64,000 nucleotides of DNA, from positions 1 to 64,000 of the forward strand of contig DATAUW010000038.1 in NCBI GenBank assembly GCA_036268055.1, given 5' to 3'. The stretch comes from Verrucomicrobiia bacterium (GTDB lineage Bacteria; Verrucomicrobiota; Verrucomicrobiia; Limisphaerales; Pedosphaeraceae). Each line of letters begins with the position of its first letter. Position 1 is the stretch's first letter. The position numbers and the translations under genes were made by a program. Shown piece after piece: positions 3,203 to 20,792 of this stretch. The notes beneath the pieces are model-generated. The model searched no databases. It was not told where the DNA came from and worked only from the letters and a program-made list of their open reading frames with translations.

Positions 3203-3228
3203 GACTAAGATTTAAAATGATTTTTCGC

Positions 3229-4059: not shown

Positions 4060-4146
4060 ATCAAATCTATATATCGGCAAAGACTACCCTATCGTTAAGC
4101 CAAATCAAACCGCATCCCGTTCCGCCGGAATATTTCACATCGCGCT

Positions 4147-4851: not shown

Positions 4852-4872
4852 GAATTTAAACAATGCCGCGAT

Positions 4873-5814
4873 TCACTTGCGTTGCGACAGCGGCTGCAAG
4901 CCGTTCGCCGCGATAAAATTCACCGCGCCGTTTTGGCCCTGCGCCATCGCCCACTGGCATTGCATCGAAAATTTCCCGTTCTTGAGCCCATGCAATAAAA
5001 TCCGGATCCACTGCGCCAGACTGATCCGCCGATGCCGCAACCCCGTCAACAGATAAGCCAGGATGTCCTGCGAAAAACGATGCCCCTGGATCAGCCGCAC
5101 GAAATACGGTTGATTGAGCCGCTGCGCAAAAATCAAATGCGTGATGCTCAACTCGGGAAAAATCCCGAAACCTTTTCCACACGCCGCCGCCGCCCACGAA
5201 AATAAATCGTCTCCTCCGCTAAAGAGAAGTTTCCCGCGCCGATCCAAAACTTCCTGCGCATTCAATCGCCGGACCAGCTCCGGATAATAGTCAGCCGTTT
5301 GCCGCGTCACACACAAGCCCGCGCCCCACGGATAACACGCCGAGTCCTTGGGATTATTGCTCCAAAGCTCCGTTGAGACAGTTCGCAACGCCAGCATGGA
5401 TAATTTTGGAACCAATTCCGGCGGCGGCGGCGTCTCAAATTCCGGCTCCAATCTCCCCGCGCCAAACGCCCCCAGATGCGGGCATCGCGCCGCGATCCCG
5501 ACCGCGCGCTCCAAAAATTCCGGCCCGAGAATATTATCGTCGTCAATGAACAGCAGCAATTCACCCTTCGCTTCGCGGATGCCGCGCAACCGCGCCGGCG
5601 TAAGTCCAAGCTGATCTTCACGGACGTGGCGGGCATTCGGCTGCCACGTCATGTCCCACGCTTCCGACAGATTTTTCTCCGAATGATTGTCCACCAGCAG
5701 CAGCTCCCATCGCTCGCGTGGAAGCGTCTGCGCCTGGAGCGCGCTCATCACCCGCTCCAGCGAATACTGCCGCGGATTGTGCGTGCAAATGATTACCGAC
5801 AAGGAAATCGCCAT
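4873..5814 (-). CDS. GT2-family glycosyltransferase
   Basis: GT-A fold inverting glycosyltransferase. It starts with the family pattern SVIICTHN at residues 6-13, then has an LLVDNHSE strand. The metal/nucleotide-binding motif is FIDDDNILGPEFLE around residue 90, a D-D-D-N version of DxD. The C-terminal third contains long helices with few clear transmembrane stretches, so it is probably membrane-associated rather than integral. It follows another GT2 gene on the same strand by 43 bases. Donor and acceptor are not readable. Confidence 0.88.
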   Translation of the reverse strand: MAISLSVIICTHNPRQYSLERVMSALQAQTLPRERWELLLVDNHSEKNLSEAWDMTWQPNARHVREDQLGLTPARLRGIREAKGELLLFIDDDNILGPEFLERAVGIAARCPHLGAFGAGRLEPEFETPPPPELVPKLSMLALRTVSTELWSNNPKDSACYPWGAGLCVTRQTADYYPELVRRLNAQEVLDRRGKLLFSGGDDLFSWAAAACGKGFGIFPELSITHLIFAQRLNQPYFVRLIQGHRFSQDILAYLLTGLRHRRISLAQWIRILLHGLKNGKFSMQCQWAMAQGQNGAVNFIAANGLQPLSQRK

Positions 5815-5857
5815 AGCAACCGATCACTGCGAAAATTCTGCGAACTCAATCGCAACT

Positions 5858-6862
5858 TTATTTTGCCAGCTTGAAACACGTCTTGTCCCAGAAACGGTAC
5901 GCTGAAATCTTGATTTGCGGCACCAGTGCATGCGCCCGCTTCGCCACGCTCCAGCCGAACAATTTTTGCACGATCGCATACCGCCGGTTCCACAACCGCG
6001 GTTCCGTCAAGGTTCCGCCTAGCGCATTCACCATCTTTTCCGTTTCGCGAAACAAGTCCGGCCGGTTGGGCAAAAAATAAAACGACCACGTCCGCAAATA
6101 ATCCACCGCCGTCGCCCGCGTCGCGTCGCTCTCTTCCACCGCGAAAAAATATTGCAGATGCAACCGCATGGACAACATCAGCGATTCCATTTTTTTATTC
6201 GATTCGCCGACCACGCTCATGCTGCCCGAACCCGAACTGCGATAATAGGATTTTGCTTCCGGCACGAATTTTACCGCGTCGCTCAACGCCACGATCCGAG
6301 TGAAATATTCCCCGTCGTCGTCAAAATTAAGCCGCGTATCCCACGGTCCCGCCTGTTGCGTGAGTTCGCGGCTGACCAGCCACACGATCGGCGGCAGATA
6401 AAGACATGGCCCCATTTTTAACTTTAGCCATTCAAGCGGACTCAAATCGTTCCAAAAATCATTAGGACTGAACTTGGCTTTGTTCGCGCGGTAAAAAAAC
6501 ATACCCCAGCTCGACGAAAAAATCGTCCGCGGACTCGTGTTCTCTTCGGCCGCCTTCATCTGGCTCGCGATTTTATCCGGCGCGAGCAGATCGTCCGCGT
6601 CCAGCCATTGAATATACTCGCCCTGCGAAACCGCGAACGCCTTGTTCCGCGCCGCCGAGCCGCCCTGGTTGGTTTGCGCGACGAGCTTGACGCCTTGCGA
6701 AATAAATTGCCGCGCCACATCCGCCGTCCGGTCCGTCGAACCATCATCCACCACGATCACTTCAATGTTCGGCCAGGTCTGCGCCAGCGCCGAACGAATC
6801 GTTTCGGCCAGCCATTTCTCCGCGTTATACGCGGGTATCAATATGGAAACAAGCGGCGGCAT
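5858..6862 (-). CDS. GT2-family glycosyltransferase
   Basis: GT-A fold enzyme of 334 residues with all N-terminal landmarks: VSILIPAYNAEKWL, VIVVDDGSTDRTADV and QWLDADDLLAPDKIASQM (a D-A-D-D version of the metal site, about residues 87-104). The region after residue 220 matches the helical C-terminal extension of surface-polysaccharide GT2 enzymes. Its ATG lies one base before the stop region of the preceding GT4 gene, so translational coupling is likely. Role inferred: one step in assembly of the repeat unit. Confidence 0.9.
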   Translation of the reverse strand: MPPLVSILIPAYNAEKWLAETIRSALAQTWPNIEVIVVDDGSTDRTADVARQFISQGVKLVAQTNQGGSAARNKAFAVSQGEYIQWLDADDLLAPDKIASQMKAAEENTSPRTIFSSSWGMFFYRANKAKFSPNDFWNDLSPLEWLKLKMGPCLYLPPIVWLVSRELTQQAGPWDTRLNFDDDGEYFTRIVALSDAVKFVPEAKSYYRSSGSGSMSVVGESNKKMESLMLSMRLHLQYFFAVEESDATRATAVDYLRTWSFYFLPNRPDLFRETEKMVNALGGTLTEPRLWNRRYAIVQKLFGWSVAKRAHALVPQIKISAYRFWDKTCFKLAK

Positions 6863-6863
6863 T

Positions 6864-8039
6864 TTAATTTTGTAAAACCTGCTGATAAACTTTCTCGGTC
6901 AATTTCCCAATCCGTTCCCAGGAATAACGCTCGGCGGCGTATTCGCGGATGCGCGCGCGATGACTTTCCGGGTCGCGCATAAAATCGCTGGCGAGGTATT
7001 CCTCCAAAGCCTGCGTGAGACCCGCCGCGTCATTCGTCTGGCAAACCACGCCGGCGTTCGCCGCTTCCACGTCTTCACGCAATGAGCCGACATCCGTGAC
7101 GGCCACCGGAAGACCAAAGCGATACGTCAGAAACAAAGCACCGCTCTGAAAAATCTCGCGGTACGGCAACACCATCACGTCAGCGGCCTTCAAATAAATC
7201 TCCACGTCCTCGTCGGGCACATGCCGCAAATCGGTGCGAACATTTTTTTTCAAACTGCACTGCTCGATCAGCCCTTCGATTTTTTCCCAATAATCGCGGC
7301 ATTCTTTTACCCGGCCAACGATGACTAATTTGAACGTCTTTCCTTTTTTAGCCAGCGCCCCGCAAGCTTCGACCAGCGTCTCAATTCCCTTATACGGCGT
7401 GATCAATCCGAAAAATAAGATCACCGGTTCGTCCTGCGGCAATTCGAGTTTCGTCCGTGCCGCTTCGCGCGTCAAATTCGTGTCCGGCACGCAGGTCATG
7501 ACGCCGTGCGGGATGACCGAGATGCGCGACTCGGGCACGCCAAAAATTTTTACCAGTTGCTCCTTCATTTTACCGGTGTGAACGATCAGATGATTCACGT
7601 TCCGGTAAAAGAAACGCAGGGACGCATGCCGAAGCCACGTCGAAGTCCCGTCACGCGCATCCGCGTCCACGTTGTGCGCGGTGAAAATAATTTTCTTTCC
7701 GAGCAGTTTGTAATAAAGCAACAGCAGCGTGCGATCGAAAAGCACCAGCTTGTACGGCCACTGGATATGGAACAACTTCGAGTCGGTCGTCGCGGCGTAA
7801 CGGATCATTTTCCAATAGACGCCCGCGACCTTCAGCAATTTTCGCAGCTTGGAAATCCTGGGATCCGATCCGCCTTGGAAATTTCTAAAATTGACCCGCG
7901 CATTGCCGGCCAATGCGGGCTCCAATTCATCCCCTCCGATCACGTCAAGCGCTATGTTCTGATTGACCAAACCCTGGATCAGGCCGGTCTCATAGTGCGG
8001 CGCGCCCCCGGTCGTAAGCGTGATTTTCATTCTGCCCAT
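6864..8039 (-). CDS. GT4-family glycosyltransferase
   Basis: GT-B enzyme of 391 residues. ITLTTGGAPHYETG opens domain 1. IIFTAHNVDAD and LIVHTGKMKEQL match the acceptor-side strand pattern. ILFFGLITPYKGIETL (about 210-225) begins domain 2. The donor site is unusual: VLPYREIFQSGALFLTYRFG replaces the more common EGxxxxxxE string, keeping the S-G-A-L-x-x-A/Y helix start of the GT4 group that uses Q/S-G. Alternative ATG at 8030. It couples to the following GT2 gene with a one-base gap. Confidence 0.88.
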   Translation of the reverse strand: MGRMKITLTTGGAPHYETGLIQGLVNQNIALDVIGGDELEPALAGNARVNFRNFQGGSDPRISKLRKLLKVAGVYWKMIRYAATTDSKLFHIQWPYKLVLFDRTLLLLYYKLLGKKIIFTAHNVDADARDGTSTWLRHASLRFFYRNVNHLIVHTGKMKEQLVKIFGVPESRISVIPHGVMTCVPDTNLTREAARTKLELPQDEPVILFFGLITPYKGIETLVEACGALAKKGKTFKLVIVGRVKECRDYWEKIEGLIEQCSLKKNVRTDLRHVPDEDVEIYLKAADVMVLPYREIFQSGALFLTYRFGLPVAVTDVGSLREDVEAANAGVVCQTNDAAGLTQALEEYLASDFMRDPESHRARIREYAAERYSWERIGKLTEKVYQQVLQN

Positions 8040-8057
8040 TGCTTGAAAAACCGGCGC

Positions 8058-8678
8058 TCAACCGCCTTGATTGAATATCACCACCACGGCGCCGCCCGGA
8101 ATCAGGGATTTATTTTCGACCACTTTGAAGGCCGATTCGATCATCGTCAGAATTTTTCCCTCGGCATTGGCGTCGTGCAACCGGACCATGATCACGCCGC
8201 CGGGTTTCAGATGCGTGAGGTAGCGTTCCAGCATGGCCACGATTTTCGGCGCCGGAATATAATAAATGGATTCGCGAAAAAGGATGACGTCGTATTTTTC
8301 GCCGGGAGTGAAATCGAAAATATCCGAGCGCAAATAATTATTGCGACCGGCCCGCTGTAATGCGGTGCTGCGCTGCCGGGCTTTTTCCAAAGCCACTTCG
8401 GAAATATCCACGCCGAGATATTTCTGATAGGTGCTGTCGGCCAGTTCACAGCCCGTATTGCCCGAGCCGCAACCCAAATCCAAAAGGTTTCCGTTGCGGC
8501 AGTATTTCTCGATGAAACCATAGATCGGATCGTCCGAAGTGTTCTCGATGAAATCCCATCGGCCGGAAGCGAACTCCGCGTCCCACAATTTTTGTTTCTG
8601 CCGGGCGCTTCCCCATTTCTGGACGCGTCCGCGAATGACTGAATGAATGCGGGTTTTGACTTTCGCGATGAGACTCAT
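8058..8678 (-). CDS. Class I SAM-dependent methyltransferase
   Basis: Predicted methyltransferase of 206 residues. Motif I is LLDLGCGSGNTG near residues 70-81, followed by YLGVDISEVALEKAR (the acidic residue that binds the ribose) and a motif IV-like YDVILFRESIYYI. This is the Methyltransf_11/25 layout. A basic N-terminal helix (KVKTRIHSVIRGRVQKWG) may hold it near the membrane. It lies between the beta-helix gene and a GT4 gene on the same strand, and a hairpin-containing gap precedes it. The acceptor could be a sugar of the repeat unit; this is inference from context. Confidence 0.85.
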   Translation of the reverse strand: MSLIAKVKTRIHSVIRGRVQKWGSARQKQKLWDAEFASGRWDFIENTSDDPIYGFIEKYCRNGNLLDLGCGSGNTGCELADSTYQKYLGVDISEVALEKARQRSTALQRAGRNNYLRSDIFDFTPGEKYDVILFRESIYYIPAPKIVAMLERYLTHLKPGGVIMVRLHDANAEGKILTMIESAFKVVENKSLIPGGAVVVIFNQGG

Positions 8679-8708
8679 GGATGGAACCTCTCAGATCAGC
8701 AGGCCAAA

Positions 8709-8730
8709 GCCACGCCTAAAAGTGCGTGGC
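8709..8730. terminator. Intergenic hairpin between the beta-helix and methyltransferase genes
   Basis: Perfect 7-bp stem (GCCACGC/GCGTGGC) with an 8-base loop. On the minus strand it lies 56 bases downstream of the beta-helix stop codon and is followed by TTTGG rather than a long T tract. It could be a weak terminator, an mRNA-processing site or a target for the NusG-like factor at the head of the operon. Confidence 0.4.
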
Positions 8731-8785
8731 CGTGCCAGCGGAACGTGATGAAACTCGGGTGGTCGCGCGCGGCGGACAAGCCGGG

Positions 8786-10612
8786 TTAATTGAGCAAGTG
8801 CAAATTTGTCGGCGCGGGTGGCCGGCTGGGCGGTTGCGGGTTGCTGCCGACGGCTCCCGAAGGCGTGCTGTTAAAGACAAAGCGATAACCGGCGGGCAGA
8901 TTGGTCACTACCGCCGCGCTGGGATTGAAAGGATCAATCGGAGGCCACGCGAGACTGCCAAACCAGCTCGGCTTCGAAGTCAAATACATTGACGGAGGAA
9001 TCGTATGATCGGCAACCGACGGGTTCCAAACAATCGAGTTGTCGGCCACGTCATAATTGCCGTGACGGAACTGAAGCTGGGAACCGAGCATGGATCCCGC
9101 CGCTGGTGAACCGCCAATGGTGTAAACGCCCATCCAGTAAATCGCGTTGGGGGGATATGCATTCGGCACAAATTGAACATTGAATTCGTAATTCTTGTGG
9201 AAGCCCGCCGTTCCAAACACGCATCCGACAAAATTTTGGTAAAAATTGGTTCCCTGCACGGACACCGCGTAAGTGTAGCTCTGTTTGCCCGGCTCATAAC
9301 CAATCATGCGCTCGCGGAAATGAGTGTTGTGGCTGGAAGAACCGTGAATGTAATCATGGCCGATTTGCGTTCCATAATTTCCCTCGAACAGATTCATCGT
9401 AGGATGCGCGCCATGCGTGGTTTCACAACCTTCCGCGAGGTTGATGCCCGGGTAGATCATGTTGGTCATGTAATTATATCCAAAAACGTTTCCCGAGCAG
9501 CCCTGATCGAGCAACAGCGGCGAAGTGATGGCGTTGAAAATATTGTTTTCCACCAAACTATCGGAAGTGCCGTAAGCGATGTTGACGCCGTAGGAAACCG
9601 AACCGCCACCGCTGGCGACGTCGTGAAAATAGGAATCGCGGATTTCGAGATGCGAACAAACCAGCGTGCCAACCGCGGCATATTGGGAGTGAGTCGTCTC
9701 CACATTTTTAAGCCAGCAGTTCAAACAATTTTGAAACAGGATCGTGTTCGGGAAAGTGCCGCCGACCGCCGCGTTGTCAATGGTCATGTTCTCCAGGCCG
9801 CACATCTGGAGCGGATTGGGCGACCAAGTGGCTTGGGGCGCTAACGAAGCGCTCCAGTTGGTCATGTAAATCGGCGGGTCAATCGTAAGCGTCTTGCCGT
9901 TGATCGCCGTCACGCGCACGGTCTGGACCTGATTGCGGATCAGTTCGGGATGGTTCACCGGGTCGCTGCCGCCGCGGCAAAAATTAACCTGCGTGCTTTC
10001 CACTCCGACCGGGTCAACAAAAGTGAATGTCGAACTGCTCGTGGCGTCCTGCTGGTCCAAAACCAGCAGCGTGCCGACAGCGAGACTGGCCGGCACGTTA
10101 TCGAGCGTGATGCTGGTGCTCCCCTGCGCATAGCCGCCCGTCCAGTTGGCTACGAAGCTATTGTTGGGACCGGTGGAATAATTCGCCGGTAAAAATGAAA
10201 TGGTTCCGAAGGGTTGTGCGCAATTATGGAAACGGATGATCGTCTGCCCGGGACCGGCTCCGCGCAGCACCATGCCATTGCCCTGGCCCAATGGAGAGAA
10301 ACTCGATTTGCCGATGATGAGTGACGCCGTCAAATCATAAGTTCCGGGCGATAAGACCACCGCCGAATTACTCGGGCAGGTCAGGAGCGCCGCCTGGATT
10401 TTGGCCGCCGAGGCGTTCGTATCCAGAGTGATCCAAATGTTCGTCACGTTGGGGATGCCTCCGAGGACACCGGGACGGTTCGCCTGCCAGTTCACTACGG
10501 AACCCGCGGGAAAAATAGTGGCGAGCGCGCTGCCGGCCACGAAGACCGACAGGAACATCACTGAAAAATATCGTAATTTTTGCATTAGCCTAAAAAAGGA
10601 AAAAATCTTCAT
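8786..10612 (-). CDS. Secreted parallel beta-helix protein
   Basis: Secreted protein with a right-handed parallel beta-helix, the fold of pectate lyases, epimerases and polysaccharide-binding proteins. From the ATG at 10612 a signal peptide is clear (hydrophobic YFSVMFLSVFVAGSALA, cleavage after ALA); an internal ATG at 10585 gives a shorter leader. Early coils resemble a Pectate_lyase_3-like start (IQAALLTCPSNSAVVLSPGTY), and repeated N-x-I/F coils (SLVENNIFNAI) follow in the middle. The last residues, PPAPTNLHLL, look like the first strand of an FN3 domain that then stops. It may trim, epimerise or bind the exported glycan; no catalytic residues can be assigned by eye. Confidence 0.75.
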   Translation of the reverse strand: MKIFSFFRLMQKLRYFSVMFLSVFVAGSALATIFPAGSVVNWQANRPGVLGGIPNVTNIWITLDTNASAAKIQAALLTCPSNSAVVLSPGTYDLTASLIIGKSSFSPLGQGNGMVLRGAGPGQTIIRFHNCAQPFGTISFLPANYSTGPNNSFVANWTGGYAQGSTSITLDNVPASLAVGTLLVLDQQDATSSSTFTFVDPVGVESTQVNFCRGGSDPVNHPELIRNQVQTVRVTAINGKTLTIDPPIYMTNWSASLAPQATWSPNPLQMCGLENMTIDNAAVGGTFPNTILFQNCLNCWLKNVETTHSQYAAVGTLVCSHLEIRDSYFHDVASGGGSVSYGVNIAYGTSDSLVENNIFNAITSPLLLDQGCSGNVFGYNYMTNMIYPGINLAEGCETTHGAHPTMNLFEGNYGTQIGHDYIHGSSSHNTHFRERMIGYEPGKQSYTYAVSVQGTNFYQNFVGCVFGTAGFHKNYEFNVQFVPNAYPPNAIYWMGVYTIGGSPAAGSMLGSQLQFRHGNYDVADNSIVWNPSVADHTIPPSMYLTSKPSWFGSLAWPPIDPFNPSAAVVTNLPAGYRFVFNSTPSGAVGSNPQPPSRPPAPTNLHLLN

Positions 10613-10765
10613 ACGTCGAGACTCGTTAGCAGGTTCGTTGCCGCAATGTTTTCGGGCACACCATACGAAACATTTGACCATCTGACAAGGAACCTATCTC
10701 GTCAGAAAAATCCTCCCTTTGCACTGTCCAAATATCCTACATGACTGCCTCAAAAATACACAAAC

Positions 10766-12163
10766 TCAGAAAGCCGGATTGGAAGGTTCGGCCTCGAAAG
10801 TCTCTTCGGTGGATTCATTTTCCAGTTCTTCATCCGCGTATTCGTAAAGCGGAGTGTTATACGTGGGATAGTCAATCGCCACCAGCAGGAACGCCATCCA
10901 AATGACACTTTGCCGGCCGAAATGGGCCTCAGTGATATTATAAATGATGTTGATCACGATAAAGATCAAGCGGATGTCGTCCACGCTTCCGCCTTCGATC
11001 GCTTTCTTTGAAAGCCGGCGGAAGCACGTGAACAGCAGCACGATCAGCAGCGCCAGGCCGATCAAACCGCCGTCCACGTAAGTCTCAAGATATCCATTGT
11101 GCGCCTCGGTCAGATGAAAGAAGAAACCGTCCGAAACGAAGTCCACCCGGCTGCCCATCCAGAAAGAATAAAACCCGACGCCAATCAGCGGATTGATTTT
11201 GATCTGCAAAACGCGGTCCCAAATCTCGGTGCGCCCGGTAAAGGTCGCGTCGCGCCCCAGCATGCTTAAAATCACTGTGCCAAACTTGAAGTTGACCTCC
11301 AGCCAGACCAGCAGCAACGTGCCGGCACAGAGGAAAATCGCGTAGCGCGCCACCATCAATCTCAGCCCCGGGTTGCGCATCATCAAAAAAAGGATTATCC
11401 CCATGATCGTGCATACCAGCGACGTTGAACTGCGTGCCTCATGCAACAGCCAGAAACTCGTCAGCAGCAATAGCGCAAAAATCAGCGGATACCGTTTGTC
11501 TTCGCGTTCCTCACCGTCACGCACGGCGAAATAATTCCACACCAGGAACACGGTGAAAACGATCAGGGAGCCGCCCAGTTCATTTTTATCGCGGGTCACC
11601 CCGCCGTACGAATATTGCCACGTCATCGGATTATAATAACGCCCGATGTCCGCGTAATATTTGATGAACAAAACCGACAGCGGCATCAGGATGTAAGCCG
11701 TCCGCACAAATAATTTTCTGATCGCCAGCGTCTGGTTTTCTTCTGTCAGCACCACCATGACCATGACGACGTTGCCGAAATCTTTGATCCATCTTTTGAA
11801 GGAGACGAATGGCGCATCTGACCACACCGCGCTCACGGCGAAATAAATGAAGAACAGCATCAGCCATTTGTTTTTGCGGAACAGCGTGCCCCAGGAAAAA
11901 CCGCGCTTGGTCAGGATCATGACGCCAAGAATTTCCAGCACCAAAAAAACATTTCGGTTCAGGGCGTTTCCTTCGCTGATGTCGTCTATGGACACATAAT
12001 CTTGCCCCGGGTTGAACCACATCGAAATTGGCCGTGAACCCAGGATCAAAACCCATAGCGTCGGAACCCACAGCGTCTTGGACACGCCTTCGGTGGAGCG
12101 ATGATCTCGCACCAGCAGCCAGGCGATGAAACCGAGCGTCAGGATGAGGGCTACTTGTTGCAT
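10766..12163 (-). CDS. O-antigen ligase/polymerase-like membrane protein (Wzy/WaaL family)
   Basis: Polytopic membrane protein of about 465 residues with 10 or more hydrophobic segments. A large periplasmic loop contains the Wzy_C/O-antigen ligase hallmark, here HLTEAHNGYLETYVDGGLIG, preceded by GVGFYSFW. Such proteins either polymerise lipid-linked repeat units or ligate glycan to an acceptor. In this locus, which also has a Wzc-like protein, a polymerase role is the simpler guess. The acidic C-terminal tail (after residue 440) is cytoplasmic by prediction. ATG at 12163 is chosen because it lies just downstream of the asparagine-synthetase-like stop; an upstream in-frame start at 12211 would overlap that gene. 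Confidence 0.85.
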   Translation of the reverse strand: MQQVALILTLGFIAWLLVRDHRSTEGVSKTLWVPTLWVLILGSRPISMWFNPGQDYVSIDDISEGNALNRNVFLVLEILGVMILTKRGFSWGTLFRKNKWLMLFFIYFAVSAVWSDAPFVSFKRWIKDFGNVVMVMVVLTEENQTLAIRKLFVRTAYILMPLSVLFIKYYADIGRYYNPMTWQYSYGGVTRDKNELGGSLIVFTVFLVWNYFAVRDGEEREDKRYPLIFALLLLTSFWLLHEARSSTSLVCTIMGIILFLMMRNPGLRLMVARYAIFLCAGTLLLVWLEVNFKFGTVILSMLGRDATFTGRTEIWDRVLQIKINPLIGVGFYSFWMGSRVDFVSDGFFFHLTEAHNGYLETYVDGGLIGLALLIVLLFTCFRRLSKKAIEGGSVDDIRLIFIVINIIYNITEAHFGRQSVIWMAFLLVAIDYPTYNTPLYEYADEELENESTEETFEAEPSNPAF

Positions 12164-12179
12164 GACGACAAAGCAAAGT

Positions 12180-14021
12180 CTAACGCAAAACTGGCGATGC
12201 CGCCCCGTCAATCATCTGCCGCTGCAATAACTCCATGGTCAGCACGCGATGGATCTCGGTGGTATAGTTGGCATTCCCCTTCACGTGGCCATTGACCATT
12301 TTTTCCACGAATTTGCCGTTTAAATAACCGCGATTGCGCGCGCGCGCATCCAGCAGCACTTGTTTGAGATAATCTCCAAACCGGTCGCGATACCAGACGC
12401 GAAAGTGATGAAACTTGTGGCGTCCGAGAAAAAGTTTTTCAAAATGCAGCGGCGCAAAAACGTGATCCGCCTTTGCGAGCCATTGCGGCATGCCGTAGTC
12501 GTAGGCGTATTCGGCTTTGAACGTGAACTCCTGGAATTGATGGCGCAGTTGCGTCAACCCCGGAATCGCATCCAGGCGGCTGGCGCGGTCCGTGCCGATT
12601 TGTTTTAACACCGGTTTCGCGCCTGCGATCATGCGGAATGGCACATCGTACGTTTGCATTTCCGGCGACGCCTGAAAAGCCAGCGCGACCAAATCATTAT
12701 CGAAATAAGGCGAGCGGATGGTGATTTGCGAACGCTCGGATTGCAGCCGCGAATAGAGATGCCACGCGGATTGCTTGAAAGCGATGAACGACAACCGGTG
12801 CTGCTGCTTTTCGCGCGCGTAAGTCGTGCTCGCATCGGCGACATGCTGGGCAAATTTCGCTTCGAGCAACTCCGGCGTGGGCGCCCAGGGCTTGAACATG
12901 ATGATGCTGCGCAGGATTTCGCCGCCGTTCAAACCGGTGATGCGCACCGGCGCAATTTTTCGCGCCACCTGGTTCGCGTAAACATCCACCGAGCCGCTCA
13001 CATCCAATGTCCCGTCCGTCACCGAAACAGTTTTTTCCGCCATCGCGGGAAATTGTTTCCAGAAATCCTCGGCTAGCGGAATGGTCTGGTAAGGCTGCTC
13101 ACACAACGCCGCGATTTCACGCGAGATGGTCACGTCCGCGCAATCGCGATACGACCCCGCAAACGTATAGCAAGGCAGCGTGCCCGGCGCGCTTTTGGCA
13201 TAAGCCAAAATCAACCGGCTATCCACCCCACCCGTCAGCGAAAGTCCCTTGGCTTCCTGGCCGCGAAAATAGCGCGGGAGAATCCGCTGCCAGGTGGCGT
13301 CGAGTTTTTCGTAATAGTCCGCGCTGCTAAGGGCGGGCTGATCTTCCCACAATTCTTTTTTGAAATAGGCGGATTTGCGAACCGGCTCACCCGGCGAGAA
13401 AACCCATTCCGCGCCGCCGGGAAGCAAATAAACGCCCGTGAAGAAGGAACGATTTTGCAGCACGCAACCGCAGGAGAAAAATTCGCCAAGGCTCTTCAAA
13501 TCCAACTCGCGCGTCTTGGGAAGCACCCGCAACAATGCCTTCGCTTCGGACGCGAAATAAAATCCGTCCTCGTTCTCATGAAAATAAATGCGGCTCGCCC
13601 CGTAACGGTCGTTAAATAAAATCGCCTTGCGCTCGCGCAAGTCCACCAGCAGGCCGCTGAACCAGCCGTTCAATTTTTCCAGAAACGCCGCGCCGTGCTC
13701 TTCGTAAAGATGGACGAGATAACTCGCATTGTCCGCGGCGAACTCGTGGCCCTTCGCGCGCAGGTTCGCAAGGACGGGCGCATCGGCAAAATCTTCGCCG
13801 GTAAAAATCAGGCAGACGTCGTGGCGCTCGTTCCAAATCGGGAGGCAATCGGAAAAAGTTCCCGCGTGAGTCGTCCAACCGACCGCCACGCCGGCAGTTT
13901 CAAACACGCTCGCCCCGGAAGTATAAAACGACTCGTGCACCATGGTTTTAATCATGGCTTCAGCGGTCGCCCGGTCATTTTCCCGGATACGGGGTGTGAT
14001 AAATCCAGCAATTCCTGGCAT
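12180..14021 (-). CDS. Asparagine synthetase (glutamine-hydrolysing)-like protein lacking the N-terminal cysteine
   Basis: AsnB-type two-domain protein of 613 residues. The N-terminal Ntn-hydrolase domain normally starts Met-Cys-Gly, the Cys being the glutaminase nucleophile; here it starts MPGIAGFITPR, so Cys2 is proline and glutamine hydrolysis should be lost. The C-terminal ATP-pyrophosphatase domain keeps its P-loop as LSLTGGVDSRLIL near residue 262. Asn synthetase homologues occur in many surface-polysaccharide clusters and are thought to amidate uronic acids or amino sugars using ammonia, which fits the AlgD-like dehydrogenase nearby. That link is inference. It is followed closely by the Wzy-like gene. 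Confidence 0.85.
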   Translation of the reverse strand: MPGIAGFITPRIRENDRATAEAMIKTMVHESFYTSGASVFETAGVAVGWTTHAGTFSDCLPIWNERHDVCLIFTGEDFADAPVLANLRAKGHEFAADNASYLVHLYEEHGAAFLEKLNGWFSGLLVDLRERKAILFNDRYGASRIYFHENEDGFYFASEAKALLRVLPKTRELDLKSLGEFFSCGCVLQNRSFFTGVYLLPGGAEWVFSPGEPVRKSAYFKKELWEDQPALSSADYYEKLDATWQRILPRYFRGQEAKGLSLTGGVDSRLILAYAKSAPGTLPCYTFAGSYRDCADVTISREIAALCEQPYQTIPLAEDFWKQFPAMAEKTVSVTDGTLDVSGSVDVYANQVARKIAPVRITGLNGGEILRSIIMFKPWAPTPELLEAKFAQHVADASTTYAREKQQHRLSFIAFKQSAWHLYSRLQSERSQITIRSPYFDNDLVALAFQASPEMQTYDVPFRMIAGAKPVLKQIGTDRASRLDAIPGLTQLRHQFQEFTFKAEYAYDYGMPQWLAKADHVFAPLHFEKLFLGRHKFHHFRVWYRDRFGDYLKQVLLDARARNRGYLNGKFVEKMVNGHVKGNANYTTEIHRVLTMELLQRQMIDGAASPVLR

Positions 14022-14090: not shown

Positions 14091-14185
14091 TGGCGGAGAG
14101 GGGAAGGATTCGAACCTCCGATACAGCTTTTGGCTGTATAACAACTTTTGCAAGTCGCTGCCTTAAACCGCTCAGCCACCTCTCC
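14091..14185 (-). tRNA. Type II (serine-like) tRNA with an 8-base anticodon loop
   Basis: Cloverleaf with an encoded CCA. The acceptor stem has 7 perfect pairs (GGAGAGG/CCTCTCC), and the discriminator is G73. The D stem is GCT/GGC with an 11-base loop. The variable arm is long: 7 bp (ATACAGC/GCTGTAT) with loop CAAAA. The T loop is TTCGAAT on a GGAGG/CCTTC stem. G73 and the long arm point to serine identity. Two features are abnormal. The anticodon stem GCGAC/GTTGT encloses eight bases (TTGCAAAA) instead of seven, and one extra C sits between the T stem and the 3' acceptor strand. The anticodon is therefore ambiguous (GCA, TGC or CAA). It may be a degenerate copy or an unusual functional tRNA. 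Confidence 0.75.
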
Positions 14186-14259: not shown

Positions 14260-15204
14260 TTAATCAGGATTTTGCACCGGCGCGTTCGGCTTGATGTCCA
14301 GTTTCGCCGGAGCGCTCGCCGTCGCTTCGCCGGAATTTTTCCCCTGACGAAACGCCGTCCAGCGATTGCGCAAATCCACCGCCTTGTCCACCCACTTTTC
14401 CGGGATGCGGCTTCTCAAGGGCTGATGCAATTTTAATTTCAACGCGAGCGCGCCCTTCAAATTCAGCGGCACATAATATCTCGGTATCTGCTGCGGCACG
14501 AAGCAATGGTTGATTTTGAAAACGCCCATGCCCCGGCGCGCCCAGATTCCGTAATGCAAAAACTTCGCCTTGCGCGCCGCGGAAATCTCGATGGCTTTTG
14601 CCAGCAGCCCATTGGTCGGCGCCTTGTCCCGATGCGCCACTTTGGAAATGATATGGATGAAATTCACGATCTCGCCCGCATAAATCAGTTTGATGAAACC
14701 AACCATTTCATCCTTGAAATAAGCGCCCACGAAAATGCTGCGATCGGGAAACGTGCCGAGCATTTTTCTCATTTCTTCAAGGCTCTTTTGGTAATGCCAA
14801 TTCTTGCGGCCCTGCACAAATGGCGACTCGTTATAAATGCCGATCACGCCGCGCACGAAGTCATCCGTCAATTCACTCTGGCGCAATTCAACGCCGTTTT
14901 TCCCGACCTTGCGGACTTTGTTGCGGGTCTTGAAATCAATCTGGTTCTTGAACCAATCGTCGTAAGTCGTGATCGGCAGCACGGCGTAAGTATCGAACTC
15001 ATGCGGCAAATCATATTTCGGCTCCGTCTCGCTGATGCGTTGCGAGAAACTAAAAACATCCGCGCTCACGCCGGCCTTTTTCAGTTGCTTGGCAAAATCT
15101 TTGGCGTCGGGAACGACTTCGTACGGTTCATCCTTGAGCCGCGCGATTCGGCAGAACTTTCCGCTCACCGCCAATGTCTGATTCAAAGCCGTGATTTCGT
15201 TCAT
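14260..15204 (-). CDS. GNAT/FemAB-like acyltransferase of the polysaccharide locus
   Basis: 314-residue protein with a GNAT-fold core of the FemAB/LicD-neighbour type. Visible pieces are RNKVRKVGKNGVELR (the N-terminal half-domain ending in a basic patch), FVGAYFKDEMVGFIKLIY (beta-4/5 strands) and NGLLAKAIEISAARKAKFLHYG. The C-terminal 60 residues are basic then proline/alanine-rich and probably disordered. Such proteins transfer an acyl or aminoacyl group to a lipid- or sugar-linked substrate, but no specific reaction can be claimed. It lies on the operon strand between the ChbG-like gene and the tRNA. Confidence 0.65.
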   Translation of the reverse strand: MNEITALNQTLAVSGKFCRIARLKDEPYEVVPDAKDFAKQLKKAGVSADVFSFSQRISETEPKYDLPHEFDTYAVLPITTYDDWFKNQIDFKTRNKVRKVGKNGVELRQSELTDDFVRGVIGIYNESPFVQGRKNWHYQKSLEEMRKMLGTFPDRSIFVGAYFKDEMVGFIKLIYAGEIVNFIHIISKVAHRDKAPTNGLLAKAIEISAARKAKFLHYGIWARRGMGVFKINHCFVPQQIPRYYVPLNLKGALALKLKLHQPLRSRIPEKWVDKAVDLRNRWTAFRQGKNSGEATASAPAKLDIKPNAPVQNPD

Positions 15205-15238: not shown

Positions 15239-15988
15239 TCACAAACGCGTATAATCAACCAATTTCAAACCGCGCGTGCTCGTCAAAAAATCTTCGCTCA
15301 TCAGCCAGTCGAGTTCCGGGGATTTCTCCGGGTGCGTCATCAATTCAACTTTGCCCGACTTTGCTAAATCCACAACCCGCCCCACCCGCTTATTTTGCAA
15401 ACATTGTTCGAGCGAAAAAAAATAATCGGTGATCGTGTGATCCTTCGCCAGTTTCCGATCCACCCACGCGCGATAACTGCGGTTCAATCCGCTTTTCTCT
15501 CCGGGCCAAAATGAAAAATTCCGGCGGACTTTTTTTCCGGCCGGAATGATCCGGTCCAACAGCATGTTCAGGCAAAGGTGTTTGTGCTGGTGTCCGTCTA
15601 TGTGCGACGGCTCTTGGCCATACAACCGCCGAAACTCTTCAAGCTGCGCCTCGAAATCATGGCGAAAGTTTTGCCGCAGCCACGGGTTGTAAAGCAACTG
15701 CGCATATTTATTTTTCACCAAAAACCGGACGACTTTTTCGTGGTTCTCGTTGACGGCTGCGGAAACTTTTCCGTCAAAGCGCTGGTTCAGGTTGACGTGC
15801 AAACCCACCGAAAGATTCGCCGCTTTCGCAAGTTCAGCGGCCCGTTCGGTGTCCGCCATGAACATCATCGCCGTCACCGACGTGATGCGTCCGGCCCGAA
15901 AACACGCGAGCGCGGCGTCGGTGGCTTTGCGCCAGCCGCCCCAATCATCGGCATTGATGATCAGGAGGCCATCGTTCGCGCCGATCAT
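15239..15988 (-). CDS. ChbG/HpnK (YdjC)-family carbohydrate deacetylase
   Basis: Metal-dependent N-deacetylase family. The protein begins MIGANDGLLIINADDWGGWR; the NADDWG string supplies the metal-binding aspartates. LSVGLHVNLNQRF supplies a histidine near residue 60, and PSHIDGHQHKHLCLNM supplies further metal-binding histidines around residue 130. The length, 249 residues, suits the family. An open frame extends about 105 codons upstream, but that part overlaps the preceding GT2 gene. The ATG at 15988 forms a four-base ATGA overlap with that gene's stop, so it is the better start. Likely role: deacetylation of an N-acetylated sugar in the glycan or its precursor. Confidence 0.85.
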   Translation of the reverse strand: MIGANDGLLIINADDWGGWRKATDAALACFRAGRITSVTAMMFMADTERAAELAKAANLSVGLHVNLNQRFDGKVSAAVNENHEKVVRFLVKNKYAQLLYNPWLRQNFRHDFEAQLEEFRRLYGQEPSHIDGHQHKHLCLNMLLDRIIPAGKKVRRNFSFWPGEKSGLNRSYRAWVDRKLAKDHTITDYFFSLEQCLQNKRVGRVVDLAKSGKVELMTHPEKSPELDWLMSEDFLTSTRGLKLVDYTRL

Positions 15989-16893
15989 GACTGGCCAACG
16001 CCCGCCTCGGGCACCGCGCGGCGGCCAGTGAAGAACCGCTTGAGCCGCGTCATCTGTTCGCGGCGTTGAAACGCAACCAGTTCTTTGGAAACCGGACGCT
16101 CCAATCCGCGCACCATGGACCACATGTAACCCGCAAAAAGTGTGACGCCGCCGATGATCACCGGCTTGCGGCTGATTTGATAAACCGAGCGGAACAATTG
16201 CCACAACGGGTGACGCCCGAGCATATAATCTTTTTGCCCGAGCTTGAAACCGTTCATGAAAACATTGTGCTTCGCGGAGCCCATCACGCGATGATGCTCG
16301 CAAAATTTTTCCGGGTAAGTGCGCGTCAGCCAGCCGTGCATGCGCGAACTCAACACGGCGATGACGTCAATTCCCCCGCCCTTCACCGGCGTGTATCCGC
16401 CGATGGCTTCGAAGCATTGGCGGCGAAATAACTGGCACGCGCCGGAAACGTGTTCGGTGCTGGTGAAACGATAATCGTAACTCACGTTGCCTTCGCGGAA
16501 CGGCGTGCCGACCAGTCCGAGCTTGGGATTTTCGGCCAGCTTGCCGAGCAGAAATTCGAAATAGACGGGCTCGAATGAAATATCCGCATCGAGGCTGCCA
16601 ATGACATCGTAGGGAATGTCCTTCAACCGCTCATAACCGGAATTGAAACAATCCACTTTGCCGGCGAAGTGGCGCACCTTGCGCTCCGGACGGCGGACCA
16701 ATTCGATCCACGGATACTCGGCGGCGTACTTCTTGACGATTTCATCCGTGCGGTCGGTGGAACCATCGCTGACGATCACCCATTTCGCCGGCAGCACCGT
16801 TTGGTTGATCACCGACTTGATCGTAAGCTCGATGTAATCCTCTTCGTTGCGCGCGGGCGATACCAACACGTAGGTAAGTGGACTCGTTTTCAT
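15985..16893 (-). CDS. GT2-family glycosyltransferase
   Basis: GT-A enzyme of 302 residues with VLVSPARNEEDYIE at the start, WVIVSDGSTDRTDEIV near residue 38 and the DxD site as GSLDADISFEPVYFE around residue 98. A C-terminal hydrophobic stretch (VIIGGVTLFAGYMWSMV, about 245-262) suggests membrane anchoring. Its stop overlaps the start of the deacetylase gene by ATGA, indicating translational coupling. The context suggests it acts on an N-acetylated sugar later deacetylated, which is speculative. Confidence 0.9.
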   Translation of the reverse strand: MKTSPLTYVLVSPARNEEDYIELTIKSVINQTVLPAKWVIVSDGSTDRTDEIVKKYAAEYPWIELVRRPERKVRHFAGKVDCFNSGYERLKDIPYDVIGSLDADISFEPVYFEFLLGKLAENPKLGLVGTPFREGNVSYDYRFTSTEHVSGACQLFRRQCFEAIGGYTPVKGGGIDVIAVLSSRMHGWLTRTYPEKFCEHHRVMGSAKHNVFMNGFKLGQKDYMLGRHPLWQLFRSVYQISRKPVIIGGVTLFAGYMWSMVRGLERPVSKELVAFQRREQMTRLKRFFTGRRAVPEAGVGQS

Positions 16894-16966
16894 GCCGTCA
16901 ATTCTTTCAGGAATGATGAAGTGCTGGTTTCAGCAACAGGAAATTCTGACACGCAAGCGGCGTAAA

Positions 16967-18229
16967 TCAAGCCGACGCGAGTTCGCTCGACTTGGTGGGC
17001 TGGCTCGCGGTGCCGGGAACTTTTTCATTCAAATATTCGTCGAGCAACGCAAGCGCGGCGAACATCGTAGCCTGGCCCCAATGCAGCGTCGGCGTCTTGT
17101 TCGTAAGCACCGGGTATTTGCGATAATAAAAATAGCCCGTGCGGTCCTGCATGTTATTGATCGTCCACTGCGCCACCGAAATAGCGGTCTCGATGCTGCG
17201 GGGATGCAGGTCGCGCAAATTGACAAGCGTCTCAATCGCCTGCGAGGCGCATTGGATGTCGAGCGGACGCGTCTTGTAATCGTAATAGCGCGGGGTTCCG
17301 TCCGCTTCAAAAAAAGTCTCCACGAAAAACGTGTAACCTTTTTTCAATTCCGGCAAAAATGTTTTGTCATTTTTCCAGCGGATATAATGGTCGAGCGCTT
17401 CGAGATTGTAACCCGTGTGGAAGGAGTCCACCCACGCCCATTTGGGATGATTGCCGTAATTCCATGCGCCGTTCGGCATCTGGTCGCGGATGGTGAACTT
17501 CACGCCTTTCTCAGCGAGTTCCAAATAAATCGGCTTCGGCGAATGACTGTTCAGGCGCGCGAGAAAACCGGCGCCAAGAATATTCGAATTATGAATGCCG
17601 TACTCGCCCTGGATCGGCTTGCCTTCCGGCGTTGGCGTGTAGCTGATGCAAATATCGCCGTGAGACGTGGCGATGTGGCCAAGTTCGTTGCTGGTGAATT
17701 CAGCGATGCCGCGCGCGACTTCAAGATAACGCTCTTCCTGCAACGCGTCATAAGCATCCAAAAACGCATGACCGATTAAGCTCGTCCAAACCACCGTCGG
17801 CGTGCCGGGTGCGATGCGTCCGCTGCGCGATTCGTAATCAAAATGATTGCCCCACGCGTAACCCTTGAATTGCGGGCAGCGATTTTTGATGAGCCACTCC
17901 AGGCACGAATGCATCTTGGCGAGATATTTTTTATCGCCGGTCGTTTGATAAAGATGCAGATAGCCTTGCGCGAAAAATCCCATGCCCTTGCTGCTGTTCG
18001 AGGGCTTGATGCCGAGCAGCGGACGGATGTTCATCGGGAACCGGCGGACGCCCTGCTGCCACACGCGCTTCATGAACGGATTGCCGAACGAGAAGATCGG
18101 CGCCAGCGGTGAGGACAAACCGTCGAACGTATCGTAACCCTTCCATTGCGCCTGCGTGGACCAGTCGTCCAGTTTCAGGAGTGATTCTCGGATTTGGCGG
18201 CTGGCGTTGGTGTTGGCCATTGTCGTCAT
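16967..18229 (-). CDS. (alpha/alpha)6-barrel, six-hairpin glycosidase-like protein
   Basis: About 420 residues with repeated helical hairpins and conserved aromatic/His clusters typical of six-hairpin glycosidases and sugar epimerases: GMGFFAQGYLHLYQTTGDKK, WGNHFDYESRSG, VWTSLIGHAFLDAYDA, WAWVDSFHTGYNLEALDHY and LHWGQATMFAALALLDEYL. No signal peptide is seen, so it is probably cytoplasmic. It is often found next to GT4 and nucleotide-sugar genes, but its reaction is unknown. The start at 18229 makes an ATGA overlap with the preceding GT4 gene; an internal ATG at 18220 and an upstream one at 18280 are less likely. Confidence 0.72.
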   Translation of the reverse strand: MTTMANTNASRQIRESLLKLDDWSTQAQWKGYDTFDGLSSPLAPIFSFGNPFMKRVWQQGVRRFPMNIRPLLGIKPSNSSKGMGFFAQGYLHLYQTTGDKKYLAKMHSCLEWLIKNRCPQFKGYAWGNHFDYESRSGRIAPGTPTVVWTSLIGHAFLDAYDALQEERYLEVARGIAEFTSNELGHIATSHGDICISYTPTPEGKPIQGEYGIHNSNILGAGFLARLNSHSPKPIYLELAEKGVKFTIRDQMPNGAWNYGNHPKWAWVDSFHTGYNLEALDHYIRWKNDKTFLPELKKGYTFFVETFFEADGTPRYYDYKTRPLDIQCASQAIETLVNLRDLHPRSIETAISVAQWTINNMQDRTGYFYYRKYPVLTNKTPTLHWGQATMFAALALLDEYLNEKVPGTASQPTKSSELASA

Positions 18230-19467
18230 TTGAGCAAAGTCTGGTAGGCAGTTAATAAATTCCGGCCGGTCACGGCCCATTGCAAATCACTCTCCACGCG
18301 TTCGCGGCCAAAGCGGCCCATCTTCGAGCGTAGCTTTTCATCGTCCATCAATTTCACGATGCCCTTGGCAAAAGCCATCTCGTCATTCGCCGGAACAAAC
18401 AACGCCGCCTGTTGCGCGGAGAAGCGCGTCTCTTTCAAATCGAATGAAACGATCGGCTTGGAGAACGCCATGTATTCCATGATCTTGATCCAGGTCGAGA
18501 CGTCGTTGAGCGGGCTCGACGGATCGGGATCCATGCAGATGTCTGCCGCGGACAAATTTTCCATCAATACCTGGTCGGAAACGAAACCGGGCAGTTCGAC
18601 GTACGCCTCAAGCTTCAATTCCCGCGACAGTTTGCGCAGGTCTTCGAGCGAGTCACCCATGCCCATGATGACACAATAAAAATCCGTGCGCTTGAGGTCG
18701 TGAACCAAATGACCCAAGGCACGGAGCAAGTAATCAACGCCGTCCTGCGGGTTAAGGCTGCCGATGTAACAAAAGATCATTTTGTTCATCGCCCGAAGAC
18801 GGGGACTCGACGGTGGAACCTGCATCCGTTCAAGGTTCGGACCGTTGCGGACCAGAAAAATAGTTTCAGCTTTGCGACCGCCGCGCGCGATCTGGATTTC
18901 CTTATACGACTCGTTCGTCGCGATGGTGACGTTCGCCAGCTTGAGATTGCACCACTCGAAAATGCGCAGCAGCGTCGTGTAAAATCCTCCGCGCGAACCG
19001 TAGCGCGACTGATAAAGCTCCGGGCAAAGATCGTGATGATCGAAAACGAATTTCTTGCCGATCAACTTATACGGCAGCGCGACCAGGAACAGCGTGTCCG
19101 GCGGATTATGCGCGTGAATGGCGTCGAACCCGCGCGTGAAAAAAATCTTCAGGCTGACGAGAAAGCACGCGGTGGTGAAATAGCTGTACTCGATGCAATA
19201 GCCGAGAAACGATTTCGCCAGCAGAAATAATTTGCCGATGAACGATAATTTATCGGAAGGCGTCTTCTGAAAAAGTTCGATGCGCGGCAGCCGGTGGACA
19301 TGAATGCCATTGAGCACTTCATAGGGCGCCTGGTTTTTCTTGCGAAGACAAATCACCGAAACCGTATAGCCGGCTTCGTTCAACAGCGTTGCTTCATTTT
19401 TGACCCGGGTATCCTGGGGAAAATTGTTTTCCACCAGCATTAATATCCGGCCGAGGGATTTCGGCAT
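18226..19467 (-). CDS. GT4-family glycosyltransferase
   Basis: GT-B enzyme of 413 residues. LMLVENNFPQDTRVKNEA (the D-T-R-V-x-x-E acceptor motif) begins domain 1, and DAIHAHNPPDTLFLVALPY follows near residue 120. FVFDHHDLCPELY resembles WbuB/fucosyltransferase-like members. FCYIGSLNPQDGVDYLLRAL opens domain 2, and ADICMDPDPSSPLNDVSTW replaces the usual E-G-x-P donor motif, as in that subgroup. The stop overlaps the next gene by ATGA. Substrate not assigned. Confidence 0.88.
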   Translation of the reverse strand: MPKSLGRILMLVENNFPQDTRVKNEATLLNEAGYTVSVICLRKKNQAPYEVLNGIHVHRLPRIELFQKTPSDKLSFIGKLFLLAKSFLGYCIEYSYFTTACFLVSLKIFFTRGFDAIHAHNPPDTLFLVALPYKLIGKKFVFDHHDLCPELYQSRYGSRGGFYTTLLRIFEWCNLKLANVTIATNESYKEIQIARGGRKAETIFLVRNGPNLERMQVPPSSPRLRAMNKMIFCYIGSLNPQDGVDYLLRALGHLVHDLKRTDFYCVIMGMGDSLEDLRKLSRELKLEAYVELPGFVSDQVLMENLSAADICMDPDPSSPLNDVSTWIKIMEYMAFSKPIVSFDLKETRFSAQQAALFVPANDEMAFAKGIVKLMDDEKLRSKMGRFGRERVESDLQWAVTGRNLLTAYQTLLK

Positions 19468-19487
19468 AACAAATAATCAGGGACAAC

Positions 19488-20792
19488 TTACCAGCAGATG
19501 CCTTCGTAGCTTGAAGGGGCTTGGGATGGTTCAATGATGCGGACCAGGTCAATCACAGTGACGCCTGGCGGTACTTGGTTCACGACTGCCTGGAATTCCT
19601 TATTGCGCTTGCTCACGATGACGATGTCGCAGTCCTTCAGGACATCCGCAGCCTTCGCGACCAGCAGCGACGAGATGTGCGGGATGGTCGCCTCGATGTA
19701 ACGGCGGTTGGAGCCGATCAACTGCGAAAGCGAAACTTCTTCGTCATATACTTTGAGTTGATACCCCTTGCCCAAAAGTTGCTCGATCAAGATCACGATC
19801 GGGCTTTCGCGCAAGTCGTCCGTGCCCGCCTTAAAACTCAGGCCCAGGACGCCGACGCGTTTCTTGCCCGTCTTGCGCACGAGATTGAACGCGTGGTCGA
19901 GATGGCGGCGGTTGCTTTCCAGCAGGGAATTCAACACCGGGAAATCGAGGTCCTGCTGGCGCGCGAGATGCAAAATGGCGCGCAAATCCTTTGGCAGGCA
20001 CGACCCGCCAAAAGCAAACCCGGGCTTCAGATAGTAAGGAGACAAGTTCAATTTGCCGTCTTTGCAAAAAACTTCCATGACTTTGTGGCTGTCAATTCCC
20101 AAGCTCTTGCTGAGAACGCCCACTTCGTTGGCAAAGCAGACTTTCAGCGCGTGAAAGGCATTGCAAGAATATTTTATCATTTCCGCCACTGCGATCGGCG
20201 TTTTTTCCAGCGGTGCGGCCAGGCTCTCGTAGAGTTTGCCGACGGTATTGATGCTGCGCTCGTCCAAACCGCCGATGACCGTGAAGGGCGGATTGTGAAA
20301 ATCCTGCACAGCGGTCGTCTCGCGCAAAAATTCCGGATTCATGCACACGCCAAAATCTTTTCCGGGCGTCTTGCCGGAGCGTTCGGCGAGCAAGGGAATG
20401 ATGATATTTTCGACCGTGCCGGGAATGACGGTGCTGCGGACATTGACGACGTGATAGGCCGAACGCTCGCGCAATTTATCGCCGAGATGCGAGACGACAC
20501 GCTGAACGTGATCGAGACAAAGGCTGCCGTTGCTGTTGCTCGGCGTGCCGACACAGATGATGGAAACATCACCCAGATCTTCGACTTCGCGGCGGGCTTG
20601 CAGACGGCCGGACGAAACGCCCTTGCCGATCAAATCCTCGAGGCCGGGCTCGATGAGCGGGCTGTGGCCGGAGTTGATGAGGTCAATTTTGTTCTGGTCG
20701 AGGTCCACGCCCGTGACGTGATGCCCGCAGGACGCGAGGCACGCCGAGGTGACACACCCCACATAACCCATGCCAAAGATGGTGACTTTCAT
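19488..20792 (-). CDS. algD: GDP-mannose 6-dehydrogenase (AlgD-like)
   Basis: NAD-dependent oxidation of a GDP-sugar (GDP-mannose to GDP-mannuronate) by the UDP-Glc/GDP-Man dehydrogenase family. Motifs in order: Rossmann VTIFGMGYVGCVTSACLA, VGTPSNSNGSL, RSTVIPGTVENIIIP, NPEFLRETTAV, KYSCNAFHALKV, the catalytic GGSCLPKDLRAI (Cys near residue 267) and GLSFKAGTDDLRESP. The C-terminal EGICW ending and the phrasing of several blocks match AlgD more closely than UDP-glucose dehydrogenases, which supports the GDP-mannose assignment. Length 434 residues, as expected. A uronic acid in the exported polymer follows from this. Confidence 0.85.
   Translation of the reverse strand: MKVTIFGMGYVGCVTSACLASCGHHVTGVDLDQNKIDLINSGHSPLIEPGLEDLIGKGVSSGRLQARREVEDLGDVSIICVGTPSNSNGSLCLDHVQRVVSHLGDKLRERSAYHVVNVRSTVIPGTVENIIIPLLAERSGKTPGKDFGVCMNPEFLRETTAVQDFHNPPFTVIGGLDERSINTVGKLYESLAAPLEKTPIAVAEMIKYSCNAFHALKVCFANEVGVLSKSLGIDSHKVMEVFCKDGKLNLSPYYLKPGFAFGGSCLPKDLRAILHLARQQDLDFPVLNSLLESNRRHLDHAFNLVRKTGKKRVGVLGLSFKAGTDDLRESPIVILIEQLLGKGYQLKVYDEEVSLSQLIGSNRRYIEATIPHISSLLVAKAADVLKDCDIVIVSKRNKEFQAVVNQVPPGVTVIDLVRIIEPSQAPSSYEGICW

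Follow-up and report, generated by a model that had tools for sequence, protein, structure and literature searches.

Staphylococcus aureus possesses dedicated tRNA-Gly genes whose products carry an altered G18G19, bind EF-Tu weakly and feed the Fem enzymes (PMC4052509). Enzymes of the FemABX-like type are also described from natural-product pathways, among them VlmA, DhpH-C, PacB, Orf11 and Sba18/Sbb17 (PMC12945691), and the text of that review mentions neither a 'tRNA gene' nor a 'dedicated' tRNA. Unusual tRNAs of serine identity exist in the form of the allo-tRNAs (PMC7609411). The anticodon plays no part in serine identity, the determinants for SerRS being the long variable arm and G73, and alanine identity is governed by G3:U70 (PMC9976931). 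No earlier description of anticodon-less or dedicated tRNAs in connection with Fem enzymes or exopolysaccharides was found in the freely accessible (non-subscription) literature searched.

The locus described here lies in a stretch of 64,000 nucleotides from a Verrucomicrobiia bacterium, referred to as the window. It contains a tRNA gene located between an asparagine-synthetase-like (asnB-like) gene and a predicted aminoacyltransferase gene, all within a polysaccharide cluster (Table 1). This tRNA very probably accepts serine without taking part in decoding and serves, through the adjacent FemX/MprF-fold transferase, as a donor for the decoration of an exopolysaccharide precursor.

Anatomy of the tRNA gene

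The tRNA at 14091-14185 on the minus strand is a genuine gene, which ARAGORN places at exactly these coordinates and reports as tRNA-??? with the anticodon gcaa. Its scores stay below the Rfam gathering scores of both tRNA-Sec (35.6 against 47 bits) and tRNA (23.8 against 29 bits), and among ordinary tRNAs it comes closest to tRNA-Ser(GCU), at about 80%. All of the cloverleaf parts listed in the original prediction were found, namely a perfect 7-bp acceptor stem, a canonical T loop, a 7-bp variable arm, G73 and the encoded CCA; the T stem has 5 bp, and the long variable arm and G73 bear out the serine-type body that had been recognized. The D stem is of the 3-bp Ser type, T8 stands opposite a C without pairing, and GG is retained at G18G19. 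The extra C reported at the junction of T stem and acceptor is likewise present, and it is common to all 14 single-copy Ser-type homologues listed.

The anticodon arm had been described as carrying an eight-base loop. It is indeed abnormal, but the loop is not open: the arm reads GCGACTT-GCAA-AAGTTGT, and the stretch TTGCAAAA between GCGAC and GTTGT consists of two T-A pairs and a GCAA tetraloop. Thermodynamic folding yields this 7-bp hairpin with its GCAA cap (fold z = -3.0), while the overall minimum-energy fold of the window tRNA is not a cloverleaf. Unmodified tRNAs often fail to give the cloverleaf as their minimum-energy fold. The seven pairs also form in the two close homologues L356 (ACAGCCT-GCAA-AGGCTGT) and L408 (GCAACCC-ACAA-GGGTTGT), with double-sided changes at three of the seven across the three sequences, including both pairs that close the tetraloop. 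Arm cells are paired in 100% of cases in this register, compared with 44-67% when the partner strand is slid. Taken by themselves, the three sequences offer modest covariation evidence, which is joined by that of larger homologue sets. Because the two extra pairs persist in homologues through compensatory changes, the window tRNA has no anticodon. The fold z-score, together with homologues that have the same extra C and arm, argues that the arm did not arise by chance; homologous loci in further genomes of the same order, and also in a second phylum, carry such tRNAs.

The host genome (5.1 Mb in 41 contigs, 96% complete) encodes Ser tRNAs with the anticodons TGA, CGA, GCT and GGA, a further Ser-type tRNA with ACT and a normal Cys(GCA) tRNA, so that decoding needs nothing from the window tRNA. 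The gene with anticodon ACT (L003:1501-1590, corresponding to G000:C1:156781-156870, minus strand) is seemingly ordinary; this anticodon is unusual for bacteria, where GCT, also present here, reads AGY.

A match of the window (14094-14149, plus strand) to Rfam family RF04351 is an artefact, as ordinary tRNA-Ser genes match too. RF04351 is a plastid 3'UTR family that matches the antisense of ordinary bacterial tRNA-Ser (also at L069, L071 and L002), and an antisense tRNA apparently forms part of its model. A T-arm pattern had no match in viral contigs, and there is thus no sign of a phage origin.

Table 1. Positions of the tRNA gene, its parts and the neighbouring genes in the window
Feature	Position	Strand	Basis
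Downstream cluster: O-antigen ligase-like gene, glycosyltransferases, Wzm/Wzt-type ABC exporter	1901..12211	-	
Asparagine-synthetase-like gene, Pro for N-terminal catalytic Cys, PP-loop SLTGGVDS	12180..14021	-	sequence
Non-decoding Ser-type tRNA gene, 95 nt including encoded CCA	14091..14185	-	ARAGORN, Rfam, fold, covariation
G73 discriminator, SerRS determinant, followed by encoded CCA	14094..14094	-	sequence; identity per PMC9976931
Extra C at junction of T stem and acceptor 3' strand (13 nt from T loop to G73)	14102..14102	-	sequence
Long variable arm, SerRS determinant	14121..14139	-	sequence; identity per PMC9976931
Anticodon arm remodelled to 7-bp stem GCGACTT/AAGTTGT, no anticodon	14141..14158	-	fold and compensatory pairs
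GCAA (GNRA) tetraloop in place of anticodon loop	14148..14151	-	fold and covariation; GCAA also in L356 and Ala-type L400
Aminoacyltransferase of FemX/MprF fold (double GNAT), proposed to use the charged tRNA	14260..15204	-	predicted structure
Upstream cluster: YdjC-like gene, two glycosyltransferases, GH88-like gene, UDP-sugar 6-dehydrogenase (19488-20792)	15239..20792	-	
Second FemAB-family gene (TIGR03019/PF02388-like), same cluster	24290..25405	-	
Hexapeptide acyltransferase, adjoining the UDP-GlcNAc 3-dehydrogenase-like gene	25387-25908		
UDP-GlcNAc 3-dehydrogenase-like oxidoreductase, possible step to a 3-amino sugar acceptor	25912..27111	-	

A tRNA-transferase cassette in two phyla

When 84,980 species genomes were scanned for a Ser D arm followed by YTGCAAA, the matches listed were nearly all ordinary tRNA-Cys genes. 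L113, from a soil MAG of Acidobacteria gp1, was the exception: it has the window's extra C and the same arm, and a homologue of the window's asnB-like gene lies downstream of its tRNA. The asnB-like protein was then used as bait in the window's relatives and in the order of the Acidobacteria MAG (two orders sampled), where it was found in 13 of 293 and 45 of 318 genomes, respectively. The cassette set comprises 54 neighbourhoods from two phyla (the window, L356 and L399-L450). A homologue of the transferase precedes the asnB-like gene in 52 of these loci, and in 32 a co-oriented tRNA gene is located between these two genes or immediately upstream of the transferase; a 33rd genome (G391) has its tRNA in this region too, at a distance of 11 kb. 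No tRNA was detected in the fetched neighbourhood at 21 of the 54 loci, which indicates that a dedicated tRNA is not a constant requirement of the enzyme family.

Across the 926 kb fetched, ARAGORN finds 21 tRNAs, all inside cassettes and none elsewhere. The Ser-type model R2 matches 13 of the 318 Acidobacteria genomes (E <= 1e-12), and 12 of these 13 belong to the 45 with an asnB-like gene. ARAGORN misses the Acidobacteria Ser-type tRNAs with a short D loop, save one that it leaves unnamed, and more generally automatic annotation misses or misnames the cassette tRNA genes.

A Thr-type tRNA stands beside the transferase at L477 on a contig without an asnB-like gene, and the tRNA-transferase pair therefore looks like the core of the system. 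No such transferase was found within the fetched DNA around the Thr-type tRNAs of L475 and L476 and the Ser-type tRNA of L479. The Thr-type cassette tRNA at L475:9724-9798 adjoins a different gene, of the GNAT_6 family (PF13480; L475:9894-11132), which suggests that other enzyme families use such tRNAs too. At the Acidobacteria loci L412, L414, L427, L430, L432 and L448, the transferase frame runs through the Thr-type tRNA gene, which is nested at its 3' end.

Kinds of cassette tRNA and their charging determinants

The cassette tRNAs are Ser-, Ala-, Thr-, Gly- or Asn-like. Four of the Ser-like tRNAs have the window's body, and ten, all from Acidobacteria, have a D loop of reduced length and an arm of 8 bp that is closed by CUUG, UUCG, UUGA and similar loops; in these ten, 97.5% of cells are paired and eight pairs show double changes. 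The Ala-like tRNAs L400 and L401 combine G3:U70 and A73 with a GCAA tetraloop and have no encoded CCA. The Thr-like tRNAs (n = 13) have the anticodon NGT, with an invariant G35-U36 (13/13) and T, C or A at position 34. Four of them have lost U33 and most have a broken G18G19, and the T stem of the Thr-like tRNAs contains a one-base bulge whose register is backed by covariation (99.6% of cells paired). The Gly-like L399 keeps TCC and has a T arm as in the Thr-like tRNAs, G18G19 being replaced in most relatives of the Thr and Gly types, and the Asn-like L411 has GTT. Nearly all cassette tRNAs depart from the norm in the T stem or at its junction with the acceptor, a part of the EF-Tu binding face.

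ThrRS reads G35-U36, and GlyRS reads the anticodon. Judged from their sequences, the cassette tRNAs retain the determinants of charging: the variable arm and G73 for serine, G3:U70 and A73 for alanine, and G35 and U36 for threonine. The anticodon is lost where SerRS and AlaRS ignore it, and the bases that are read are kept, while the others drift, where ThrRS and GlyRS need them, a pattern that points to charging without decoding. It is likely that these genes represent a class that extends across phyla, in which dedicated tRNAs, either anticodon-free (Ser, Ala) or impaired in decoding (Thr, Gly, Asn), stand beside FemX-like enzymes and provide bacterial polysaccharides with one particular amino acid. 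Each such tRNA would be reduced to a substrate for charging, its kind keeping only what its own synthetase reads.

The transferase and its genomic setting

The structure model of the transferase (pLDDT 90) has full-fold matches to FemX (Z 19.2), Sba18/Sbb17 (17.5-18.1), the Weissella enzyme FemXWv (17), FemA (17) and MprF (16), which span 226-250 residues. The protein itself has no significant Pfam match. Among its homologues, FemAB (PF02388) is matched in 8 of 31 at E values up to 1, the best being a weak 2.9e-4, and weak matches to GNAT and LPG_synthase_C also occur; the assignment is thus based on the fold and the homologues. A tree of 52 homologues (quick search, SH-aLRT support, no bootstrap) splits at SH-aLRT 100 into one clade that holds all of the Thr, Gly and Asn cassettes and another that holds all of the Ser and Ala cassettes. 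Both clades hold both phyla, and the five tRNA kinds need four changes on the tree, which is the minimum. The kind of tRNA follows the transferase phylogeny across phyla, and at L429 two transferase genes are each paired with the matching kind, a Ser-clade copy with a Ser-type tRNA and a Thr-clade copy, which is frameshifted, with a Thr-type one. The Ser-type tRNA of this locus (G614:C151) shows changes in the acceptor and T arm, and the Thr-clade transferase is split by the frameshift; the system at L429 may be decaying.

The N-terminal catalytic Cys of class B asparagine synthetases is absent from the product of 12180-14021, and MPG replaces MCG, with loss of the glutaminase Cys, in essentially all 54 asnB-like homologues. 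By a simple pattern, the PP-loop SLTGGxD[ST] is present in about three quarters of the family. Given the Pro in place of the catalytic Cys, the asnB-like protein probably uses an amine other than glutamine-derived ammonia.

The exopolysaccharide cluster also holds chain-length and sugar-phosphate transferase genes. A gene for a protein with a VPDSG-CTERM sorting motif lies beside it (window 30444-31205), in keeping with an origin in Verrucomicrobiota. At L479, the Ser-type tRNA gene comes immediately after those for a DegT-family sugar aminotransferase and an oxidoreductase resembling the UDP-GlcNAc 3-dehydrogenase-like one of the window. Considered together, this oxidoreductase of the window cluster and the neighbours of the tRNA at L479 make a 3-amino sugar, perhaps a 3-amino-uronic acid, a reasonable candidate for the acceptor.

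Proposed function

In the proposed pathway, ordinary SerRS would charge the window tRNA through the variable arm and G73, and the missing anticodon would exclude it from translation. The extra nucleotide between T stem and acceptor possibly helps this exclusion and could weaken EF-Tu binding. The FemX/MprF-fold transferase would then move serine onto an amino group of an exopolysaccharide precursor, with the asnB-like ligase and the remaining cluster genes acting in the same decoration or assembly pathway. Relatives would work alike, but with tRNAs of the Ala, Thr, Gly and Asn types, and the kind of tRNA would thus set the amino acid delivered.

If this is correct, tRNA-dependent aminoacylation reaches exopolysaccharides, and natural tRNAs without any anticodon have evolved. 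The loss of the anticodon with SerRS and AlaRS and its retention with ThrRS and GlyRS would constitute a clean natural experiment on synthetase identity. Moreover, genome sequence alone would predict the amino acid that decorates a given polysaccharide.

Alternative explanations

The original prediction offered GCA (Cys), TGC (Ala) or CAA (Leu) as a readable anticodon and raised the possibility of a +1 frameshift suppressor. A suppressor or misreading allo-tRNA, with an eight-base loop presenting GCA or a four-base GCAA, would insert serine at Cys codons or shift the frame, and both the ARAGORN reading and the bases TTGCAAA, which look like a Cys loop, lend themselves to this idea, as do the known serine-identity allo-tRNAs. 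It is nevertheless hardly credible, since two covarying pairs close the loop, homologues at the same locus carry ACAA, UUCA-type, CUUG, UUCG or UUGA loops and thus no anticodon, normal Cys(GCA) and Ser tRNAs are present in the genome, and the acceptor branch has a 7/5 layout with one added nucleotide in place of 8/4 or 9/3. A relationship to unusual serine-type tRNAs in other bacteria, suggested at the same time, is upheld. A decaying or pseudogene copy of tRNA-Ser(GCU), also envisaged at the outset, would account for the identity of the nearest ordinary relatives and for the low tRNA model score, yet it is highly improbable in view of the perfect stems, the compensatory changes in three homologue sets and across phyla, the synteny of the transferase/asnB-like cassette in two phyla and the extra C in every listed Ser-type copy. 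Random stem-breaking changes without linkage, as expected of plainly broken tRNA-Ser homologues, were not observed, and the copy in L429 that seems to be decaying looks different. A homopolymer sequencing error in the AAAA and CCCC runs was rejected, as the same extra C and arm recur in independent genomes and the adjacent frames are intact.

Other explanations accept the RNA as conserved but assign it a different role. As a cis-acting operon RNA, it would be a tRNA-like regulator or processing site of the mRNA rather than a free aminoacyl donor. The element does lie between co-oriented genes and, at several Acidobacteria Thr-type loci, sits inside the transferase frame at its 3' end, and tRNA-like mRNA regulators of ThrRS are known (PMC9976931). 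The acceptor stem, discriminator, CCA and synthetase-specific identity elements are, however, kept for at least four amino acids, the Ala-type tRNAs still have G3:U70 and A73 even without an encoded CCA, the tRNA may stand before or after the transferase gene, and its kind tracks the transferase clade, all of which makes a cis-acting role very unlikely. Use of the tRNA by the asnB-like ligase in place of the transferase, for example with an aminoacyl-tRNA as the amine nucleophile, would fit the missing glutaminase Cys, as no ammonia is made from glutamine in place. This option is quite improbable: the pair at L477 comes without an asnB-like gene in its contig, the kind of tRNA fits the transferase tree, and it is the transferase that has a tRNA-dependent fold. 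The donor role in serine transfer by the FemX/MprF-fold enzyme thus remains the preferred explanation.

Comparison with known systems

Allo-tRNAs resemble the window tRNA in their serine-type class II body and in an unusual anticodon arm and acceptor/T junction, and Acidobacteria are among their hosts (PMC7609411). They have a readable anticodon and a 12-bp branch (8/4 or 9/3), whereas the window tRNA is anticodon-free, with a 7/5 branch and one unpaired C. With tRNA-Sec (RF01852), its best-scoring Rfam family, the window tRNA shares the 13 nt from T loop to discriminator on the 3' side; it differs in its score below the gathering value, a 3-bp D stem in place of a long one, an unpaired position 8, and the absence of both the 8-bp acceptor stem and the UCA anticodon. 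The FemABX-like enzymes of natural-product pathways have the same fold and presumably the same chemistry as the transferase (PMC12945691), but here a tRNA gene travels with the enzyme.

The tRNA-Gly/FemXAB system of S. aureus (PMC4052509, PMC9976931) likewise couples dedicated tRNAs to a Fem-type transferase that acts on a cell-surface polymer. G18G19 is altered there as it is in most Thr- and Gly-type tRNAs here, and the cassette tRNAs would similarly escape EF-Tu. In contrast to S. aureus, the cassette tRNA genes adjoin the transferase gene, lie in polysaccharide clusters and belong to Gram-negative phyla. They would deliver Ser, Ala, Thr and Gly, and probably also Asn, and the Ser and Ala kinds are free of an anticodon. 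The window system is best read as an analogue of the peptidoglycan tRNA-Gly/FemXAB pathway, placed in a new setting and with an extreme form of tRNA.
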